Assembly: GCF_000744815.1 (NCBI RefSeq)
Contig: NZ_JQMQ01000005.1
Location: forward strand, 6,219,801 to 6,283,800
Length of the DNA: 64,000 bases
Reading direction: 5' to 3'
Source of the DNA: Phaeacidiphilus oryzae TH49
GTDB lineage: Bacteria; Actinomycetota; Actinomycetes; Streptomycetales; Streptomycetaceae
Part shown: positions 5,499-53,350 of the stretch, piece after piece
Layout of the letters: every line of letters begins with the position of its first letter
Position numbering within the stretch: the first letter of the stretch is position 1
Made by a program: the position numbers and the translations under genes
The notes under the pieces: generated by a model
Told to the model about the DNA's origin: nothing
What the model saw: only the letters and a program-made list of their open reading frames with translations
The model's database searches: none

Positions 5499-6323
5499 TC
5501 AGGCTGTGGGGGACGGGCCGCGTTGGCAGTGGGTGCACCAGTAGGTGACGCGGTCCTCCGGGTCGGCGCCGGGCGGGGTCGTGGAGACCGGGCCGCCGCA
5601 GCGGCCGCAGCCCGTGCGGTCGCGGCCGTAGATCCAGTGGCGCCTGCCGGGCCGGGTGTCGCCGGTGGTGACGTGGCCGTGGCGGAGGCGGTTCGCCCAC
5701 AGCAGCCGGCGCCCCAGCGCGACCGTGCGGGCGAGGTCCGCCTCGGAGAGCTCGCCCACCGGGATCCACGGCGTCACCCCGCGAAGGAAGCACAGCTCGA
5801 CCCGGTAGACATTGCCGATGCCGGCCAGGTTCCGCTGGTCGAGGAGCGCAGCGCCGAGCGCCCGCTCGGGCCGGGACGCCAGCCGGCGTACCGCCTCGGC
5901 CGCGGCCTCCGGCCCCCACCCGGGGCCGAGGAGGTCCGGGCCGAGGTGGCCGACGGCCTGCTCCTCCTCCGCGGTGTCGAGGAGCTCCAGTACCGGCAGG
6001 CGGTAGCCGACCGCCGTGTACCGGCTGTTCCCCAGCACCGCCCGCACCTGGAACGCCGGCCCGCCCCGCCACCGCTCGCCGGCCTTGCTGATGTCCCAGC
6101 GCCCGTCCATCCGCAGATGGCTGTGGAGGGTGCGGCGGGCGCCGTCCCGTTCGATCCGCATCAGCAGGTGCTTGCCGCGCGGTACCACCTCGGTGACCGT
6201 CCCACCGGTCAGGTCGACGGTGGCCAGCCGCGGCACCCGCAGATCGGCGCGGACCAGCTCGCGGCCGGCCAGCGCCTGGTGGAGGCGGTGGGCGGCGAGA
6301 TAGACGGTGTCACCCTCGGGCAT
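5499..6323 (-). CDS. nei: Endonuclease VIII-like DNA glycosylase (Fpg/Nei family)
   Basis: A base-excision repair enzyme of 274 residues that excises oxidised bases and nicks at the abasic site. It begins MPEGDT, giving the catalytic Pro2 and Glu3 after loss of Met1; Lys51 in PRGKHLL matches the conserved lysine of the family. QRNLAGIGNVYR is the helix-two-turn-helix, and the C-terminus has a zinc finger (CGRC, 20 residues, CTHC). The MPEGDT start and GDT rather than LPE are typical of actinobacterial Nei2 proteins. It is single and faces the repeat array at its 3' end. Confidence 0.93.
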   Translation of the reverse strand: MPEGDTVYLAAHRLHQALAGRELVRADLRVPRLATVDLTGGTVTEVVPRGKHLLMRIERDGARRTLHSHLRMDGRWDISKAGERWRGGPAFQVRAVLGNSRYTAVGYRLPVLELLDTAEEEQAVGHLGPDLLGPGWGPEAAAEAVRRLASRPERALGAALLDQRNLAGIGNVYRVELCFLRGVTPWIPVGELSEADLARTVALGRRLLWANRLRHGHVTTGDTRPGRRHWIYGRDRTGCGRCGGPVSTTPPGADPEDRVTYWCTHCQRGPSPTA

Positions 6324-6546
6324 CCCCCCATGATGCCCCGACCGGGCGGCGTACTGCGGCTATCTCACATGGGCATGTCAGGTTACTGATGGGTGGATTC
6401 TCCAGATGCCGGGCGAAAGTCGGCGTCGGAGGACTGTGCGGCGGGGGTGCCGTCTGCTACTCAAGAGAGGCGGGACGCCTACCGGCGAGTACCCGCAGGG
6501 CACCAGGCAGTACTCCGTGGCACCACCCGTCACCGTGGAGGAACCC

Positions 6547-7395
6547 ATGCGCATCAGACCCAGCCGCACCGCCTCCCGCACCGCCTCCCGCACCGCCTCC
6601 CGCACCGCGTCCCGCACCGCCTCCCTCGCCGCAGGACTCGCCGCCGTCGCCGGGGCCGTCCTCGCGCTCGCCGACCCCGCCGGGGCGGCCGGCGTGAACT
6701 ACGTGGCCCTCGGCGACTCGTACTCCTCCGGAGTCGGCGCCTCCAGCAGCTACCTCAACTCCTGCGACCAGAGCACCAGCGCGTACCCGTACCTCTACCA
6801 GTCGGCCGTCAAGCCCGCCTCGTTCGGCTTCGAGGCCTGCGGCGGTGCCACCACCACCGACGTCCTCAACAACCAGCTCGGTCCGCTCAACTCGGCGACG
6901 ACGCTGGTCAGCATGACCATCGGCGGCAATGATGTCGGGTTCTCCACGGTGATGGAGGACTGCGTGCTGGGCAGCGACTCGACCTGCCTGAACGCCATCA
7001 ACAGCGCCGAGAACACCACCCGCACCCAGCTCCCCGCCTGGCTGGACGCCACCTACAGCGCCATTCGCTCGCACGCCCCCAGCGCCCACGTGGTGATCCT
7101 CGGCTACCCGCACTTCTACGACCTCGCCAACTCCAGCTCCTGCGTCGGGCTGGACACCACCAAGCGCACCGCGCTGGACCAGGGCGCGGACCTGCTGAAC
7201 AGCACCATCCAGACCGAGGTCGCCAAGTACGCGAACTTCACCTGGGAGAGCGTGGCCTCCCGGTTCGCCGGCCACGAGCTGTGCGACTCCACCCCGTGGC
7301 TCCACTCCCTCACCTGGCCGATCGGCAGCTCGTACCACCCCACCGCGGCCGGCCAGTCCGGCGCCTACCTGCCGGCGCTGGAGGCCGGGCTGTAA
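6547..7395 (+). CDS. Secreted GDSL/SGNH lipase-esterase
   Basis: A 282-residue secreted hydrolase. The start is set by GGAGGAA just upstream of the ATG at 6547, although the frame is open further up. The signal peptide has an odd Arg-rich n-region built from repeated Thr-Ala-Ser-Arg, a hydrophobic stretch, and likely cleavage near AGAA-G (about residue 48). The mature part has block I GDSYSSG (nucleophile Ser58), block III MTIGGNDVG and block V YHPTAAGQ with the catalytic His, plus several cysteines that may form disulfides as in Streptomyces extracellular lipases. It likely hydrolyses short- to medium-chain esters outside the cell. Confidence 0.9.
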   Translation: MRIRPSRTASRTASRTASRTASRTASLAAGLAAVAGAVLALADPAGAAGVNYVALGDSYSSGVGASSSYLNSCDQSTSAYPYLYQSAVKPASFGFEACGGATTTDVLNNQLGPLNSATTLVSMTIGGNDVGFSTVMEDCVLGSDSTCLNAINSAENTTRTQLPAWLDATYSAIRSHAPSAHVVILGYPHFYDLANSSSCVGLDTTKRTALDQGADLLNSTIQTEVAKYANFTWESVASRFAGHELCDSTPWLHSLTWPIGSSYHPTAAGQSGAYLPALEAGL

Positions 7396-39507: not shown

Positions 39508-39561
39508 CCATGTCACTTGTGGAATGGTCGACCTGCCGAGACCATTCCACAAGTGACATGG
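39508..39561. promoter_or_regulatory. Perfect 22-bp inverted repeat upstream of padR
   Basis: Both arms (39508-39529 and 39540-39561) are 22 bases, exactly complementary, and begin CCATGTCACTTG; the spacer is 10 bases. It is A/T-richer than its surroundings. It lies between the PadR start and the 3' end of the KDPG aldolase gene, so it is either the PadR operator or a terminator for the upstream unit. The absence of a T-run and the closeness to padR favour the operator. Confidence 0.7.
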
Positions 39562-47112: not shown

Positions 47113-48420
47113 TCAGCGCGCGTGGTCCAGGGCGAGGAGCAGCGCGGCCAGCTGGGTCCGGATCAGGTCGCGGATCGGCGTCGGCCGCACTCCCAGCTCG
47201 GCGGCGAACTCGGCGGAGAGCGCGGGAAGCAGCGCCCGCAGTCCCGGCGCGACCGGCAGGGGGGAGCGCAGTCGCATCCCGAGCGCCCGCAGCGGCAGCC
47301 GGTACGCCCCGGCGCGCACGCTGTTCCACACATCGGCGGCCAGCTCGGGGTCCTCAGGGCGGAGCATCCCCCGCCAGCGCTCGGTCTCGTTGCCCAGCAG
47401 GCGCAGCGTCTCCCGGACCGGCGGCAGGTACACCGGGTCCTCGGCGCCGAACGGGGCCTCCGGCCCGGCGGCCCGCAGCTGCGCGCTCCGGCGGTCCGCG
47501 AGGTCCGCCAACTCGCCCATCCGGCGCCGCCACCGGGACTGCGGTGGGGCCGGCTCGCGGCGCATCCGCCAGAGCGGCACCTCGGCGATCACCCCGAGCG
47601 CCCCGCAGACCCGCTCGGCGTAGTGGAGGCTGCAGGCGCCGTGGCCGCGTCCGTCGCCGCCCGCGGCGGCGTTCGCCTCCGGGCCGAGGATGTAGAGCTC
47701 GTCGGCGCCCGGCAGGACGTGCACCCCCGGGGCGGGGGTGGCCCAGCCGACGCTGTCCGCGTCGTACCGGCCGAGGGAGAGGCCGAAGCGGGCCGGCAGC
47801 CGGGACAGCTCCTGCGCGAGACCGCCCTGCTGCCGGCTGAGCATGAAGAAGGAGCCGTCCAGGTCGGTGTTGTGGAGCGAGGCGACCAGCTCGGGACGGA
47901 GCCGGTCGACCGCCTCCATCACCGCCCGGGTCTCCGGCCACAGCGCCTCCCGGCCGGTCCGCGCCCCGGCCAGCGGGAAGGTCCACTCCGGCTGCTCGCA
48001 CAGCCGCGGCCGGTAGAACCAGCGGTGGTAGACCTCCGGGGTCAGCGGGCGGACGCCGTACCAGCCCTCGTTGCGGCGGGCGCCGACGGCGTCCCAGCAG
48101 GCGACGACGTTCCAGGTCCAGCCCGCCCGCAGGGCCGCGGCCTGCGGGCCGGGGCCGCCGAGCAGCCGCAGCAGCTCCAGGCAACTGGCCATCCCCACCG
48201 GCTCGTTGGGGTGGGGCCCGCCCAGCAGCAGCACCTGGCGCCGACCGCTGCCGGCGCGCACCAGCTCCAGCGGCCTGCCGTCCCGGTACCGGCCCAGCGC
48301 TTCGACCCGCCCCCCGGCGCGCTCGGCCAGGCTCCGCGCCTGGGCCAGCACTTCGTCCACCCCCGGGAAGCCCGGGAAGTCCCGTACGGGATCGAGCGTG
48401 CCTGCTTCTCCACTCGTCAC
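47113..48420 (-). CDS. M14-family zinc carboxypeptidase-like protein
   Basis: A 435-residue protein. His70 and Glu73 in LLGGPHPNEPVG form the HxxE zinc motif, a second His is in ELVASLHNTDLDG, and the catalytic Glu is probably in VIAEVPLW. The C-terminal 150 residues are Arg/Leu-rich helices not needed for catalysis. There is no signal peptide, so an intracellular peptide or amide is the substrate. Its GTG overlaps the TGA of the upstream flavoprotein gene (GTGA), an unusual pairing. Confidence 0.82.
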   Translation of the reverse strand: MTSGEAGTLDPVRDFPGFPGVDEVLAQARSLAERAGGRVEALGRYRDGRPLELVRAGSGRRQVLLLGGPHPNEPVGMASCLELLRLLGGPGPQAAALRAGWTWNVVACWDAVGARRNEGWYGVRPLTPEVYHRWFYRPRLCEQPEWTFPLAGARTGREALWPETRAVMEAVDRLRPELVASLHNTDLDGSFFMLSRQQGGLAQELSRLPARFGLSLGRYDADSVGWATPAPGVHVLPGADELYILGPEANAAAGGDGRGHGACSLHYAERVCGALGVIAEVPLWRMRREPAPPQSRWRRRMGELADLADRRSAQLRAAGPEAPFGAEDPVYLPPVRETLRLLGNETERWRGMLRPEDPELAADVWNSVRAGAYRLPLRALGMRLRSPLPVAPGLRALLPALSAEFAAELGVRPTPIRDLIRTQLAALLLALDHAR

Positions 48421-49964
48421 CCTCCGGTCATACCCGCCTCGGGCCGCCGCCGGAACCGGAGCGGCGGCAACTGCCGGGCCGACGGCCGGCCGGGCGTCTC
48501 CGGCGAGCGCTCCCCGCAGGCGCGGAGCGCGGCCCTGGCCGCCAGATAGCCGGCCATGCCATGGACGCCGGGGCCGGGCGGCGTGGAGGCGGAGCAGAGG
48601 AAGACCCCGGGCAGCGGGGTGGCGTACGGATTCCAGCGGGCGACCGGGCGCAGCAGCGTCTGCCGGATCGTCACCGCCCCGGCGCCGATGTCCCCGCCGA
48701 CGTAGTTGGGGTTGTACGCCTCCAGCGCGCGCGCCGGCACCGAGCGGGCGGCGACGATGGTGTCCCGGAACCCCGGGGCGTGCTCCTCGATCCGCCTGAT
48801 GATCTCCTCCTGGGCGTCCTCCGGCCGCCCCTGCGGGACGTGGGCGTAGGCCCAGAGCGGGTAGCGGCCGCCGACCGCCCGCCCGGGGTCGGTGTTGGCC
48901 GGCTCGGTGACCAGGATGAACGGGCGGGCGGTGGCCAGCCCGCGGGAGGTCTCCGACTCCGCCCGGTAGAGCTCCTCGCGGGTGCCGCCGAGGTGGACGG
49001 TGCCGGCGATCCGCAGCTCGGGATCGCGCCACGGCACCGGCGAGTCGAGCAGCAGGTCGGTCTTGGCCGCGCCGGGCCCGTGCCGGAAGCGGCCGAGCGC
49101 CCGGGCGTACCCGGCGGGCAGCCGGCCGCGGCTGATCCGCAGGAACTCGCGCGGGCCGAGGTCGGCCAGGACCAGCCGGTCGGAGTCGAGTTCGGCCAGG
49201 TCGTCGATCCGCCGGCCGGTCACCACCCGCCCGCCGTGCGCCTCCAGGTCGGCGATCAGCGCGTCCGCCAGGGACTGGCTGCCGCCGGCCGGCAGCGGCC
49301 AGCCGCCCGCGTGGGCGAGATGGCCGAGGAGGAGCCCGGTGGCCGCGCCGGTCAGGCTGGGCAGCGGCCCGACGGAGTGCGCCGCCACACCGGCCAGCAT
49401 CGCGGCGGCCTGCGGGGTGCGCAGCCCCCGCTCGGCGGTCAGCCGCAGGGCGAGCAGCAGCGGGGCGACCGGATCGCGCGGCGGGGTGCGGAAGTCGGAG
49501 AGCATCAGCCGGACCACCTCCTCGCTGTGCGCCCGCAGCGGGCCCATCAGCCGCCGCCAGCCGGGGCCGTCCGGGCCGAGGCCCTCGGCGGTGACCTCCA
49601 GCGAGCGCCAGGCCAGTCCGGGCGGGCGGCCGCCGGGGAGCGGATGGGCGTAGGAGAGGGCGGGGGTGAGGAGCCGCACGCCGTGCGCGGCGAGGTCGAA
49701 ATGCCGGAAGAAGGGCGAGGCGGCGGCCATCGGATGGACCGCGGCGCAGATGTCGTGCCGTACGCCGGACTCGAAGAGGTCGACGGAGCGCAGCCCGCCG
49801 CCGGGGGTGTCGGCCGCCTCGTGGACGGTGACCCGCAGCCCGGCCCGGGCCAGGGTGACCGCGGCGGCCAGCCCGTTCGGCCCGCTGCCGATCACGCTCG
49901 CCGTGCCCGAGTCGGATGACCGTTTCGCTGACCGCCCCGTCGCGCGCCCCGAGTTCACCACCAT
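48417..49964 (-). CDS. Phytoene-desaturase-like FAD oxidoreductase
   Basis: A 515-residue flavoprotein starting with a basic leader and then ASVIGSGPNGLAAAVTLARAG, HEAADTPGGGLRS and, near the end, LPGVFLCSASTPPGPGVHGM, where the FAD-binding end motif is found. This is the CrtI/NAD(P)-FAD group (COG1233) without carotenoid genes nearby. The start is the ATG at 49964; the frame extends upstream through sequence that lacks a ribosome site. The substrate is unknown, and coupling to the M14 peptidase suggests a shared pathway. Confidence 0.85.
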   Translation of the reverse strand: MVVNSGRATGRSAKRSSDSGTASVIGSGPNGLAAAVTLARAGLRVTVHEAADTPGGGLRSVDLFESGVRHDICAAVHPMAAASPFFRHFDLAAHGVRLLTPALSYAHPLPGGRPPGLAWRSLEVTAEGLGPDGPGWRRLMGPLRAHSEEVVRLMLSDFRTPPRDPVAPLLLALRLTAERGLRTPQAAAMLAGVAAHSVGPLPSLTGAATGLLLGHLAHAGGWPLPAGGSQSLADALIADLEAHGGRVVTGRRIDDLAELDSDRLVLADLGPREFLRISRGRLPAGYARALGRFRHGPGAAKTDLLLDSPVPWRDPELRIAGTVHLGGTREELYRAESETSRGLATARPFILVTEPANTDPGRAVGGRYPLWAYAHVPQGRPEDAQEEIIRRIEEHAPGFRDTIVAARSVPARALEAYNPNYVGGDIGAGAVTIRQTLLRPVARWNPYATPLPGVFLCSASTPPGPGVHGMAGYLAARAALRACGERSPETPGRPSARQLPPLRFRRRPEAGMTGG

Positions 49965-50053: not shown

Positions 50054-50095
50054 GCCGAGGCCCCCGGAGCGGGGGACCGCTCCGGGGGCCTCGGC
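50054..50095 (-). terminator. Strong terminator after the 19-codon ORF
   Basis: A perfect 18-bp stem (50054-50071 with 50078-50095) with a six-base loop, all G/C except two pairs, lies 11 bases beyond the small ORF and upstream of the flavoprotein gene. It isolates the small ORF as its own transcription unit or ends the Lrp transcript. Confidence 0.8.
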
Positions 50096-50105
50096 AGGGC
50101 ATCCG

Positions 50106-50165
50106 TCAGACGAGCACGCCGATCAGGTGGAGGAGCCCGGCCAGCGCGTCGGTGAGGAAGTTCAT
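50106..50165 (-). CDS. 19-residue hydrophobic micro-ORF
   Basis: ATG 50165 opens MNFLTDALAGLLHLIGVLV and ends at TGA. The peptide is an amphipathic or membrane helix with a single Asp and His. It is followed at once by a strong terminator and preceded by a 180-base leader with its own possible promoter, so it stands in a short unit of about 250 bases between the Lrp and flavoprotein genes. A ribosome site is weak (ACGAG/CCGAG). It could be a small membrane protein, a leader peptide or chance; no known family is claimed. Confidence 0.4.
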   Translation of the reverse strand: MNFLTDALAGLLHLIGVLV

Positions 50166-50339
50166 CTCGGTCACTCGTTTCTCTGCTTGCTCTTACTGGG
50201 ACAGTTCGCGCCACGCGGTCTGCAGCCCGTCTCTGGCACACCGTCAGCATCACGTGTCACGTTCACCCGTGGGCGGGATATCGATGGGGTGCATTCGTTC
50301 GCGTGAACACCCGATCGTTTGTACGGAGAGCAATCAGAA

Positions 50340-50356
50340 GTTGACGCAACGTCAAC
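50340..50356. promoter_or_regulatory. Perfect TTGAC-type palindrome at the end of the Lrp gene
   Basis: GTTGACGcaaCGTCAAC overlaps the Lrp stop codon and lies at the upstream end of the micro-ORF unit. It could be an operator for that unit or a weak terminator hairpin. Confidence 0.4.
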
Positions 50357-50852
50357 CCGACGCCGAAATCGCCCGCAGCAGGGGGTCCACCCGGTAGGGC
50401 ACCAGTTCGCGCATGGCCAGCGCGGTCGAGGTCCGCTCGACACCGGGGACGGCCAGGATCCGGTCCGCGATCCCGTACAGATGACCGGCGTCCTCGGCCA
50501 CCACCCGGACCAGCAGGTCCCGCTCGCCGGTCAGCCCCAGCACCTCGACCACCTGCGGGATCTCCGCCAGCTCGGCCGAGACCTCGGCCAGCCGGTGCTG
50601 GTTGACCTGAGTGGTGACCACGGCCGTCAGCGGATGCCCGAGGGCCTCCGGGAGCACCCGCCGCTGGGCCCGGCCGAGAGCCCCGTCCCGCTCCAGGCGG
50701 GCCAGCCGCGCCTGCACGGTGTTCCGGGACAGGTCCAGCTTCTGGGCGAGGGAGAGCACCGTCGCCCGCGGGTCCGCGTCCAGCGCGAGGAGGATCCGCG
50801 CGTCGGTGGCGTCCACGGCGCGGCGGGGCGGTCGGCTGCTCACGGTGCTCAA
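50352..50852 (-). CDS. Lrp/AsnC-family regulator
   Basis: A 166-residue regulator. VDATDARILLALDADPRATV and LAQKLDLSRNTVQARLARLE are the AsnC HTH, and the RAM effector domain follows (VTTQVNQHRLAEVSAEL, GERDLLVRVVAEDAGHLYG). It is divergent from an AceE-like gene with a palindrome between. Such proteins sense amino acids or their keto acids, which suits regulation of a ThDP keto-acid enzyme. Confidence 0.9.
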   Translation of the reverse strand: MSTVSSRPPRRAVDATDARILLALDADPRATVLSLAQKLDLSRNTVQARLARLERDGALGRAQRRVLPEALGHPLTAVVTTQVNQHRLAEVSAELAEIPQVVEVLGLTGERDLLVRVVAEDAGHLYGIADRILAVPGVERTSTALAMRELVPYRVDPLLRAISASG

Positions 50853-50877
50853 CTGCGGGCTCCTGTGCTCGGCTGGT

Positions 50878-50896
50878 ATTGGGCAGACTGCTCAAT
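50878..50896. promoter_or_regulatory. Lrp-type operator
   Basis: ATTGggCAgacTGctCAAT is a palindrome (ATTG-N2-CA-N3-TG-N2-CAAT) 26 bases before the Lrp start and about 70 bases before the AceE-like start, probably the autoregulatory site. Confidence 0.5.
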
Positions 50897-50968
50897 CGGA
50901 CAGTCGAATATTGTGCGTCGGCCCAGCTCTGTGTCTACTGAGCGGCAGAAAGAGCAGCAGGGCCGGCA

Positions 50969-53350
50969 ATGGAGGTGGCCGCGGTGACGGTGACGGACGC
51001 GAACTCGGCGGAGTCCGGGGCGGAGCTCGGGGCGGCCCGGCTCGGCACGCTGGAGGCGATCGAGCGGCGGGTGCTGTGGCTGGCCACCGCGATCATCGAC
51101 CACACCAACCGGGTCAACCCGGACCCCTCAGGCCTCAAGGTCGGCGGCCACCAGGCGTCCAGCGCCTCGATGACCACCATCGCCACCGCACTCTGGTTCC
51201 ACGCCCTCGGCCCCGAGGACCGGGTCTCGGTCAAGCCGCACGCCTCACCGGTGCTGCACGCCGTCCAGTACCTCCTCGGCGACCTGGACGCCCGCTACCT
51301 CACCACCCTCCGCACCCTCGGCGGACTGCAGTCCTACCCCAGCCGCTCCAAGGACCCGGACACCGTCGACTACTCCACCGGCTCGGTCGGCATCGGCGCT
51401 ACCGCCCCGCTGTGGGGCGCCATCGCCCGCCGCTACGTGGACGGCCGCTTCGGCACCGGCCCGGCGGCGGGCGCCGGCACCGGCCGCCAGTACTCGCTGC
51501 TCGGCGACGCCGAACTGGACGAGGGCGCGATCTGGGAGGCGCTCCAGGACCCGATGGTCGCCGGGCTCGGCGAGGCCGTCTGGATCGTCGACCTCAACCG
51601 CCAGTCCCTGGACCGGGTGGTGCCGGCGATGGCCGGCGAGCGGCTGCACGGCATGTTCCGGGCGGCCGGCTGGCAGGTGCTCACCGTCAAGTACGGCCGG
51701 CTCCTCGAGGAGCTGTTCGCTCGGCCGGACGGCGGGCCGGAACTCCGCGCCCGGATCGAGACCATGGGCAACCCGGAGTACCAGCGGCTGCTCCGCTGCA
51801 CCCCGGCCGAGCTGCGCAGGCGGCTGCCCGGCACCGGCTCCACCGCGGCCCCGATCGGCCGGCTGCTGGACGGCCTGGACGACGCCGTGCTGCCCGCCGC
51901 CCTGCGCAACCTCGGCGGCCACGACCTGGGCGCCCTGCTGGCCGCCTTCGACGCCGTCGACGACACCCGCCCGACGGTGATCCTCGCCTACACCGTCAAG
52001 GGCCGCGGCCTGCCCACCGAGGGCCACCCGCAGAACCACTCCTCGCTGCTGACGGGCGATCAGATCGCCGCCCTCGCCGCCGACCTGGGCGTCGACCCGG
52101 CAGACCCGTGGGCCGCCTTCCCGGCCGGCAGCCCGGAGGCCGGGCTCTGCGCGGCCGCCGCCGAACGCCTCCGCCGCCCGCGGCGCGAGTACACCGCCCC
52201 GCCGCCGGTCCCCACCGACTTCGGCCGCACCCCGACCGGCACCGCCACCACCCAGCAGGCCCTCGGCCGGGCCCTTCTCGACCTCACCCGGCAGGCCCCG
52301 GAGGCGGCCGCCCGGGTGGTCACGGTCAGCCCGGACGTCAGCTCCTCCACCAACCTCGGCGGCTGGCTCAACAAGGTCGGGGTGTGGTCCCCGAACGAGC
52401 GGCCGGACTGGTTCGCGGACGACGCCGAGACCATCCTCCACTGGCGGGAGGAGCCCACCGGCCAGCACATCGAGCTGGGGATCGCGGAGACCAACCTGGT
52501 CGGCCTCCTCGGCGAGCTCGGCGCCACCTGGTCCCGCTGGGGGCAGCCGCTGCTGCCGGTCGGCGTGGTCTACGACCCGTTCGTCAACCGGGCGCTGGAG
52601 CCGTGGTCCTTCGGCGTCTACGCGGGCGGGCAGTCGCTGCTGGTCGGCACGCCGGCCGGGGTGACCCTGGCCCCCGAGGGCGGCGCCCACCAGTCCGTCA
52701 CCACCCCCTCGCTGGGCATCGAGCAGCCCGGCGTCACCGCCTGGGAGCCCGCCTTCGCGCTGGACGCCGAATGGTGCCTGCTGGCGGCCCTGGGCCTGCT
52801 CGGCCGGCCGGACGGCGGCTCGGCGTACGTCCGCCTCTCCACCCGGCCGGTGGCCCAGGGCCTGGCCGGGGTGCCGGCCGACCCGGCGGCGCGGGAGCGC
52901 CGGCGCCGGCAGGTGGTGGCGGGCGCCTACCCGCTGCGCCGGGCCGCCGGGGTCGACCGGCCGGACGTCACCATCGCCGTGATGGGCGCGCCCACCACGG
53001 AGGCGCTGGAGGCCGCCGACCGGCTCACCGCCCTCGGCCACCCGGCCGACGTGGTCTGCGTGACCAGTCCCGACCTCCTCTTCCGCGCCCAACGGGCCCG
53101 CCGCGGCCTCGCCGACGCCCCCGACTGGATCCTCGACCAGGCCTTCCCCGCCGACCGGGCGGCCCCCATGGTCACCCTCCTCGACGGCCACCCCCACACC
53201 CTGGCCTTCCTCCCGACGATCCACCGGGTCCCCGGCGCCAACCTCGGTGTCACCGACTTCGGCCAGTCCGGCCGCCTGGCCGAGGTCTACCGCAAGCACG
53301 GCCTGGACGCCGACACCGTGGTCGGCACCGCGCTCGACCTGGTGGAGTGA
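50969..53350 (+). CDS. AceE-like ThDP enzyme (pyruvate dehydrogenase E1 / transketolase group)
   Basis: A 793-residue enzyme of homodimeric 2-oxo-acid dehydrogenase E1 type. VGGHQASSASMTTIATALWF opens the ThDP domain, GDAELDEGAIWEALQDP and WIVDLNRQSLDRVVP are the cofactor motif, HPQNHSSLL follows, and the second domain has HIELGIAETNLVGLLGELG. It is shorter than typical AceE (about 890 residues) and no E2 or E3 gene is present. A stand-alone decarboxylase/ligase or a partner to a remote E2 are both possible. The Lrp regulator is divergent. Confidence 0.85.
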   Translation: MEVAAVTVTDANSAESGAELGAARLGTLEAIERRVLWLATAIIDHTNRVNPDPSGLKVGGHQASSASMTTIATALWFHALGPEDRVSVKPHASPVLHAVQYLLGDLDARYLTTLRTLGGLQSYPSRSKDPDTVDYSTGSVGIGATAPLWGAIARRYVDGRFGTGPAAGAGTGRQYSLLGDAELDEGAIWEALQDPMVAGLGEAVWIVDLNRQSLDRVVPAMAGERLHGMFRAAGWQVLTVKYGRLLEELFARPDGGPELRARIETMGNPEYQRLLRCTPAELRRRLPGTGSTAAPIGRLLDGLDDAVLPAALRNLGGHDLGALLAAFDAVDDTRPTVILAYTVKGRGLPTEGHPQNHSSLLTGDQIAALAADLGVDPADPWAAFPAGSPEAGLCAAAAERLRRPRREYTAPPPVPTDFGRTPTGTATTQQALGRALLDLTRQAPEAAARVVTVSPDVSSSTNLGGWLNKVGVWSPNERPDWFADDAETILHWREEPTGQHIELGIAETNLVGLLGELGATWSRWGQPLLPVGVVYDPFVNRALEPWSFGVYAGGQSLLVGTPAGVTLAPEGGAHQSVTTPSLGIEQPGVTAWEPAFALDAEWCLLAALGLLGRPDGGSAYVRLSTRPVAQGLAGVPADPAARERRRRQVVAGAYPLRRAAGVDRPDVTIAVMGAPTTEALEAADRLTALGHPADVVCVTSPDLLFRAQRARRGLADAPDWILDQAFPADRAAPMVTLLDGHPHTLAFLPTIHRVPGANLGVTDFGQSGRLAEVYRKHGLDADTVVGTALDLVE

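Follow-up and report, generated by a model that had tools for sequence, protein, structure and literature searches.

In the window, i.e. the whole stretch of 64,000 nucleotides from Phaeacidiphilus oryzae TH49 that was analysed, a short gene, pepX, lies between a gene for an Lrp/AsnC-family regulator upstream (lrp, 50352..50852; PF01037, PF13412) and a flavin amine-oxidase-like gene downstream (48417..49964; PF01593), all three on the minus strand; the start of the latter at 49964 is presumed, its longest ORF starting at 50102. Reading of the ORF and its homologues at other loci place pepX at 50106..50165, from an ATG at 50165 to a TGA at 50108-50106, with a predicted product of 19 residues, MNFLTDALAGLLHLIGVLV. 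The 19-codon hydrophobic ORF proposed in a preliminary description of this DNA is therefore borne out, on the minus strand and with a peptide conserved beyond chance. Its start appears ambiguous between ATG 50165 and a GTG at 50174, nine bases upstream, from which a product of 22 residues, MTEMNFLTDALAGLLHLIGVLV, would be made. Where aligned units of the family have CAAGGAG as ribosome-binding site, the window has CAAGCAGAG (50181..50189, minus strand), and this site is weaker than in the relatives whether it is read before the ATG or the GTG.

A stem search revealed a terminator-like hairpin (50054..50095, minus strand) that begins 10 bases past the pepX stop codon. Its arms, 50054-50072 and 50077-50095, are both perfect and form a 19-bp stem with the loop UCCC on the transcribed strand, with no U-run after it; the perfect stem had been described correctly before, but with a length of 18 bp and a spacing of 11 bases. 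Only one other perfect stem in the window exceeds it in length when stems from 12 bp upwards and loops of 3-10 bases are considered, and five shuffles keeping local composition produced one 12-bp stem in all. The longest inverted repeat of this kind in the window, 22 bp and perfect around a 10-base loop, is found at 39508-39561. The simple, T-tailed terminator consensus did not match at the pepX hairpin, and no Rfam family matched at its gathering threshold in the window; we ascribe to chance, and not to a known RNA family, six sub-threshold matches (sR035, four microRNA families and Ms_IGR-5), of which five cover just the hairpin.

Upstream of the ORF the DNA is A/T-richer, as had been claimed, with a GC content of 58.6% at 50166-50351 versus 73.9% in the window. 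A covariance model built without the window (R1) matches a putative structured leader element at 50194..50247 (minus strand; E 2.7e-5, whole genome), with an outer stem UGUGCCA/UGGCGCG, an inner stem CGG/CCG and a loop G-CUGCAG-A. The most conserved stretch in the aligned leaders is ACGGGCTGCAGACCG (50216..50230, minus strand), which includes the palindrome CTGCAG, and motif counts single out a linker motif, GUCCCA (50197..50202, minus strand), between the leader stem and the ribosome-binding region. The conserved leader starts with GTGATGCTGACGG (50241..50253, minus strand), a presumed -10 region, and no sigma-70 promoter consensus matched at the window unit.

Further upstream lies the element GATCGG-GTGTTC-N4-GAACG (50283..50323, minus strand), with its core TGTTCACGCGAAC at 50297-50309, which pattern counts mark as a probable regulator site. 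The TTGAC-type palindrome that the preliminary description placed in the leader does exist, as TTGACGCAACGTCAA at 50341-50355, where it overlaps the lrp stop codon. However, because TTGACn3-7GTCAA was found within 350 bp upstream of none of the 57 other pepX units, we do not count it as part of the unit, and the conserved palindromic element is TGTTCN4GAAC at 50297-50309 instead. We take the TTGAC palindrome to resemble a BldD or Lrp-type site.

PepX homologues and their coding conservation

In Streptomyces venezuelae, PepX was identified by mass spectrometry as N-formyl-MNVITNLLAGVVHFLGWLV; it is among the main peaks of culture extracts, is strongly depleted by ethanol shock and occurs in the supernatant in traces alone (PMC9769785, the last point also PMC11256431). 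Deletion of pepX in this species altered the expression of hundreds of genes, with modest effects on metabolites (PMC11256431), and PepX homologues are ‘frequently’ identified in Streptomyces cultures, with their role unexplained (PMC13136089, 2026). The gene of S. venezuelae NRRL B-65442 (RS03776), like that of the window, codes for 19 residues of the pattern MNxxTxxLAGxxHxxGxLV and is an intergenic gene of its own, whereas the window copy diverges in having V instead of W at position 17 and, as described above, a weaker ribosome-binding site. As it is homologous to S. venezuelae PepX, we read the window gene as a new copy of PepX. The window copy stands at a new site, and the conserved cassette around the ORF was not found described in either PepX paper.

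Profile A1, which includes the window peptide, matches this 19-residue ORF with the PepX residue pattern at E 1.2e-8 in its own genome, and a DNA search from the window stretch alone also recovered homologues: across 297 genomes of the family its best matches span the ORF and little else, and the loci found in this way code for peptides of equal length. With the search profile, built from 14 peptides, we obtained 62 places in 60 of the 297 Streptomycetaceae genomes at E <= 1.5e-3 and no match at this threshold in the other 237; the next match stood at E 0.03 and the rest were short. At the same threshold 59 of the 60 matching genomes have a single match, and one has three copies. We read 58 of the 60, the window included, leaving out G135 and G288, and the 57 other loci contain 54 complete ORFs of exactly 19 codons, two of 20 codons (L113, L114) and one degenerate match with neither start nor stop codon (L112, genome G286). 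Locus L101 of genome G173 holds three pepX copies within ~700 bp (about 5880-6620), two of which lie tail to tail, share a 42-bp inverted repeat and both lack the leader motif.

The ORF can also be approached from its leader. A leader-only DNA pattern, which lies outside the ORF, was scanned in named genomes, with ORFs of 15-24 codons accepted and an SD-like motif required, and among the matches listed a PepX ORF follows in 79 of 80 loci, the exception being a Methylobacterium record; 77 of these ORFs are complete, all of exactly 19 codons, and two are cut by the locus end. Conservation, in the form of profile matches across the family and of an ORF following the leader motif, rules out a chance ORF. 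In a set of 92 distinct ORFs, which encode 71 peptides, conservation at second codon positions is 0.91-1.00, replacements at hydrophobic positions are mostly among V/I/L/F, with some A, and GC at third codon positions averages 95%; the mean pN/pS over 3000 random pairs, 0.54, is just moderately low. An amphipathic-helix pattern was present in all six sequences tested, with a hydrophobic moment above that of shuffles (p 0.004 or less) and a best helical angle of 100 degrees in each.

We saw no spread beyond the family, since all 11 matching genomes among the 296 class genomes searched fall within Streptomycetaceae. A PepX record labelled ‘Microtetraspora glauca’ (L251, JOFO01000001.1) is probably a mislabelled Streptomyces, because it is ~93% identical over several kb to L186 (Streptomyces sp. 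NRRL F-5727), and we attribute to chance the 34 bases of the window stretch that match a Nonomuraea record. A phage origin was set aside, the L089 unit having no phage match, as was a plasmid origin, the one ‘plasmid’ match being a 2.8-Mb Streptomyces replicon that agrees in length and coordinates with locus L095, already counted. Four PepX members gave no match to a known protein family in Pfam or NCBIfam, searches whose sensitivity is limited by such short queries, and the S. coelicolor homologue was reported as unannotated (PMC11256431); for these reasons pepX genes tend to be missed. In the text of a survey of small ORFs (PMC10654065), pepX was not found.

The cassette, its setting and its presumed RNA elements

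Alignment of 60 units in 58 loci delimits a conserved cassette of ~270 bp (window ~50323-50054, minus strand) that comprises the upstream element, the leader stem, the GUCCC linker, the 19-codon ORF and the terminator-like hairpin. The short unit of its own with a terminator that had been proposed is therefore confirmed in its anatomy, and it is larger and more conserved than was claimed. It stands among at least seven sets of neighbours, some with one neighbour in common and named by reading their sequences (a family scan was made for the window flanks alone): a YceG-type transglycosylase gene with an ABC exporter, a carboxylase-like gene with an S8 protease, a flavin monooxygenase with MFS, LacI or other genes, and others. 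S. venezuelae pepX lies between a YceG-type transglycosylase gene and an ABC transporter gene, a position not shared by the window pepX between lrp and the amine-oxidase gene; as the YceG-type gene adjoins the unit in just 24 of the 57 other loci, the remaining loci being elsewhere or having lost this gene, the position does not define the family. In 6 of these 24 loci the unit has the opposite orientation. When four loci were each compared with four others, all 16 pairs showed an inverted piece of ~226-313 bp, with the unit in it, between colinear flanks.

The preliminary description had asked for conservation of the peptide between the same flanking genes. The peptide is conserved; the lrp/amine-oxidase pair, in contrast, recurs in none of the 57 other loci read. 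A search of 101 genomes found a close lrp relative (E <= 1e-40) in five others, in all of which a transketolase-like gene is adjacent, and there we found no amine oxidase within the 1.5 kb examined and no PepX match in the genome, so that these five orthologous loci have the lrp-transketolase pair without pepX. In the window, lrp and the transketolase-like (pyruvate dehydrogenase E1-like) gene form a divergent pair at 50352-53350, and its retention in all five other genomes suggests that the Lrp protein may control the adjoining transketolase-like gene.

Across the family, the upstream element reads GAACA..GATCGG-TGTTC-N4-GAAC and lies ~155 bases ahead of the start. Its pattern [TG]GTTCN4[GA]AAC occurs upstream in 39 of the 60 units, the window included, against a background density of 0.011 per 270 bp at the same loci with the pepX sites counted in, and near forms are visible by eye in several of the other 21 units. 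We regard this GAACA/TGTTC-type element as a probable regulator site.

For the leader stem, all six outer pairs could form in 22 of 50 distinct leaders in a first test, versus 8% in shuffles; this set left out L063, L067 and L112, which have no leader motif, and L076, L101a and L101b, which do not match the motif pattern (42 of the 50 leaders form alignment A2, and A3 has 14). In 55 distinct rows aligned to the model, both sides differ in 48 cells that still pair, and the covariation score comes to 0.247; 0/500 shuffles reached either value, and the stem tolerates G-U pairs. However, two of the five measures do not exceed shuffles, namely the number of pairs in which both sides vary (5, the shuffle mean being 4.4; 219/500) and further pair types (16 against 14.5; 73/500), and one inner helix is paired in just 68% of cells. 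Since alignment A6 was fitted to an imposed structure and the sequences are related, we take covariation as support for an RNA structure in the leader, not as proof. The model failed to match seven of the 66 sources searched (L063, L067, L106, L112, L296, L297, L298). The loop palindrome is swapped for another palindrome in some loci, ATGCAT in L100/L101 and CCGCGG in L108, and is non-palindromic in L106 (CTTCGG).

The UCCC of the terminator loop is a second recurrent feature. It is present in 45 of the 49 hairpins found in 60 units, 11 of which have no perfect 9-bp hairpin within 90 nt, and in 48 of 53 distinct stems (137 units including the named loci listed; 124 with a hairpin). Control hairpins taken at these loci and scored by a looser rule have it in 45 of 1133 cases. 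The window hairpin keeps the UCCC loop although its stem sequence is unrelated to that of other units. Furthermore, [GA]UCCC occurs no more than 75 nt upstream of the start in all 60 units, whereas random windows contain it in 588 of 4036 cases and windows that precede other ORFs in 65 of 435. In the leaders of L091, L092 and L094, [GA]TCCC appears two or three times ahead of the start, as if the site were multiplying. An intramolecular pairing between the GGG of the leader and the UCCC loop is not supported, as L108 and L097 change the GGG and leave UCCC unchanged. The main texts of PMC9769785 and PMC11256431 mention no leader, UTR, secondary structure, terminator or sRNA, and the letters of the leader motif turned up, among the papers searched, only in an unrelated diatom paper. 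For Streptomyces in general, Moody et al. noted that four of 58 conserved sRNAs might encode protein, and they also brought up C-rich loops as a question (PMC3765725).

Peptide, RNA and DNA-site readings

We consider it probable that pepX is an autonomous gene, or cassette, for an amphipathic, abundant and membrane-associated peptide, with a regulator-like site, a structured 5' leader and a terminator-like hairpin. This reading draws on the homology, the coding conservation, the conservation of the cassette and its independence from neighbours observed here, and on the product, its abundance and the deletion effect shown for the S. venezuelae homologue (PMC9769785, PMC11256431). Of the four identities first offered for the locus, a small membrane peptide is the best supported, given the amphipathic pattern in all six sequences and an abundant homologue that leaves traces in the supernatant; the S. 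venezuelae authors propose membrane association via a partner and predict no transmembrane helix (PMC11256431). The window copy would be transcribed and translated, and its product would fold as an amphipathic alpha-helix in which the small or polar residues N2, T5, D6, A9, H13 and G16 form a stripe that may face water or a partner and the V/I/L/F face may lie in the membrane. PepX could then act as an abundant membrane-surface peptide that alters the state of the envelope, and the shift in stress-sigma-factor and secondary-metabolism expression would be downstream of that change.

Other roles for the peptide fit less well. A role as a leader peptide, or in attenuating the amine-oxidase gene downstream, would agree with the strand that both genes share and with the hairpin between them, but this earlier proposal is contradicted because the unit precedes different genes, often convergent ones, and does so in either orientation, even inverted between the same flanks; with its gene context so varied and no constant position and orientation before a regulated gene, we see next to no chance for it. 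It is also highly improbable that PepX is a type I toxin, as had been suggested, with an antisense RNA as the antitoxin that represses it: a short hydrophobic peptide and three close copies in one genome would be in line with it, but the peptide has no net positive charge, 59 of 60 genomes have a single match at E <= 1.5e-3, and the homologue is copious in the wild type. The published overexpression construct carries pepX and its native Shine-Dalgarno behind the promoter P21 (PMC11256431), and the passages on overexpression with this strong promoter mention no toxicity (PMC9769785, PMC11256431). A secreted signal or antimicrobial peptide strikes us as improbable. Formylated leaderless short amphipathic peptides can be secreted, as the phenol-soluble modulins are, but an ABC transporter gene adjoins pepX in one context only and the S. 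venezuelae supernatant holds just traces of the peptide.

Two further readings concern the sequences around the ORF. In one, which we find possible but doubtful, the leader palindrome and stem would be bound as DNA by a regulator close to where transcription starts, instead of being RNA structure, and UCCC would be the site of an RNA-binding protein or have a merely local role. In line with this, CGGnCTGCAGnCCG forms a DNA dyad of its own, which could be such a site, and upstream of it there is another, TGTTCN4GAAC; covariation with G-U pairs and variable internal loops, however, fits RNA better. The other, a rather unlikely one in our estimate, would add to the peptide reading and makes the pepX transcript a dual-function RNA that also acts in trans as a small RNA, so that the sRNA among the identities first offered would be its second function. 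Its UCCC sites (terminator loop, linker and, in some species, an extra leader loop) would pair with G-rich ribosome-binding sites on other mRNAs, its CUGCAG loop may serve for kissing between two transcripts or for binding a protein, and the peptide would be a second product, as delta-haemolysin is of RNAIII. Points in favour are the enrichment of UCCC in the hairpin loops and distinct stems, the [GA]TCCC upstream in every unit, above both control sets, the two covariation measures that no shuffle reached, the replacement of the loop palindrome by other palindromes, and UCCC in both a loop and a single-stranded stretch of the window unit, as in RNAs of the RNAIII/LhrC type. On the other side are the two covariation measures within the range of shuffles, the fitting of A6 to an imposed structure with seven sources lacking a model match, the non-palindromic loop of L106, the three loci without the motif (L063, L067, L112), and the lack of an Rfam match at gathering threshold for a UCCC-type sRNA. 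Moreover, the published deletion is in-frame and keeps the first and last codons, so the change in the transcriptome points to the peptide (PMC11256431). The most far-reaching version, in which pepX would be a mobile-like dual-function RNA gene that dimerises via its CUGCAG loop, regulates mRNAs via its UCCC sites and encodes a peptide, an independently arisen high-GC counterpart of RNAIII whose ~285-bp cassette moves and inverts, we hold to be unlikely.

We believe that, with PepX abundant in S. venezuelae, its loss shifting hundreds of genes and its function unexplained, the parts of the cassette matter, and that the upstream element, the covarying leader and the repeated UCCC sites are concrete parts to mutate singly. 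The published deletion and overexpression construct would appear to test the peptide, not the ends of the RNA.

Sister peptides and known systems

The leader model and motif also led to relatives of 17 codons in genus g14, where matches at E <= 0.1 occur in 8 of 70 genomes, and for seven of these E is no higher than 3.7e-5. Loci L292-L298 encode hydrophobic peptides such as MLLTLLGNIVAFLGWLL and MILNLLASIVAVLGWLL, which share with PepX the CTGCAG core in the leader, the amphipathic pattern and an ending GW[LV][LI]; they differ in being two residues shorter, in their N-terminus and in that GUCCC was not seen in the linker or hairpin loop of the seven relatives (L296 has UUCCC in the linker), which counts against the dual-function reading. 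Judged by these likenesses, the 17-codon peptides are a sister family of PepX, and we know of no description of it. Among 33 loci around exact leader-motif matches away from known pepX, two (L126, L129) are 17-codon relatives and the others, with no leader-like context by eye, were taken as chance; the pattern in reverse, run as a control on these 297 genomes, matched 24 times. The 20 regions from weaker covariance-model matches (L153-L172) yielded one new unit, L153, a divergent 19-codon form with the leader of pepX and a GUCCC hairpin loop, and two 17-codon units seen before (L156, L157), the remaining 17 being taken as chance by their appearance.

Among known systems, type I toxins such as Ibs are short hydrophobic peptides and resemble PepX in this and in having a stand-alone unit, whereas PepX is abundant in the wild type; to our knowledge, neither an antisense RNA nor toxicity is known for PepX. 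RNAIII of Staphylococcus aureus is a structured RNA coding for a short formylated amphipathic peptide, delta-haemolysin, and in this respect is like the pepX unit, which is much shorter. We know of no homology between the two, of no RNA target of pepX, and of no peptide encoded by the LhrC sRNAs of Listeria. The likeness of the pepX unit to both systems lies in its UCCC sites, which RNAIII shares and which in LhrC are found in two hairpin loops and a single-stranded stretch and bind the Shine-Dalgarno region, much as the dual-function reading would have it for pepX (PMC4132741).
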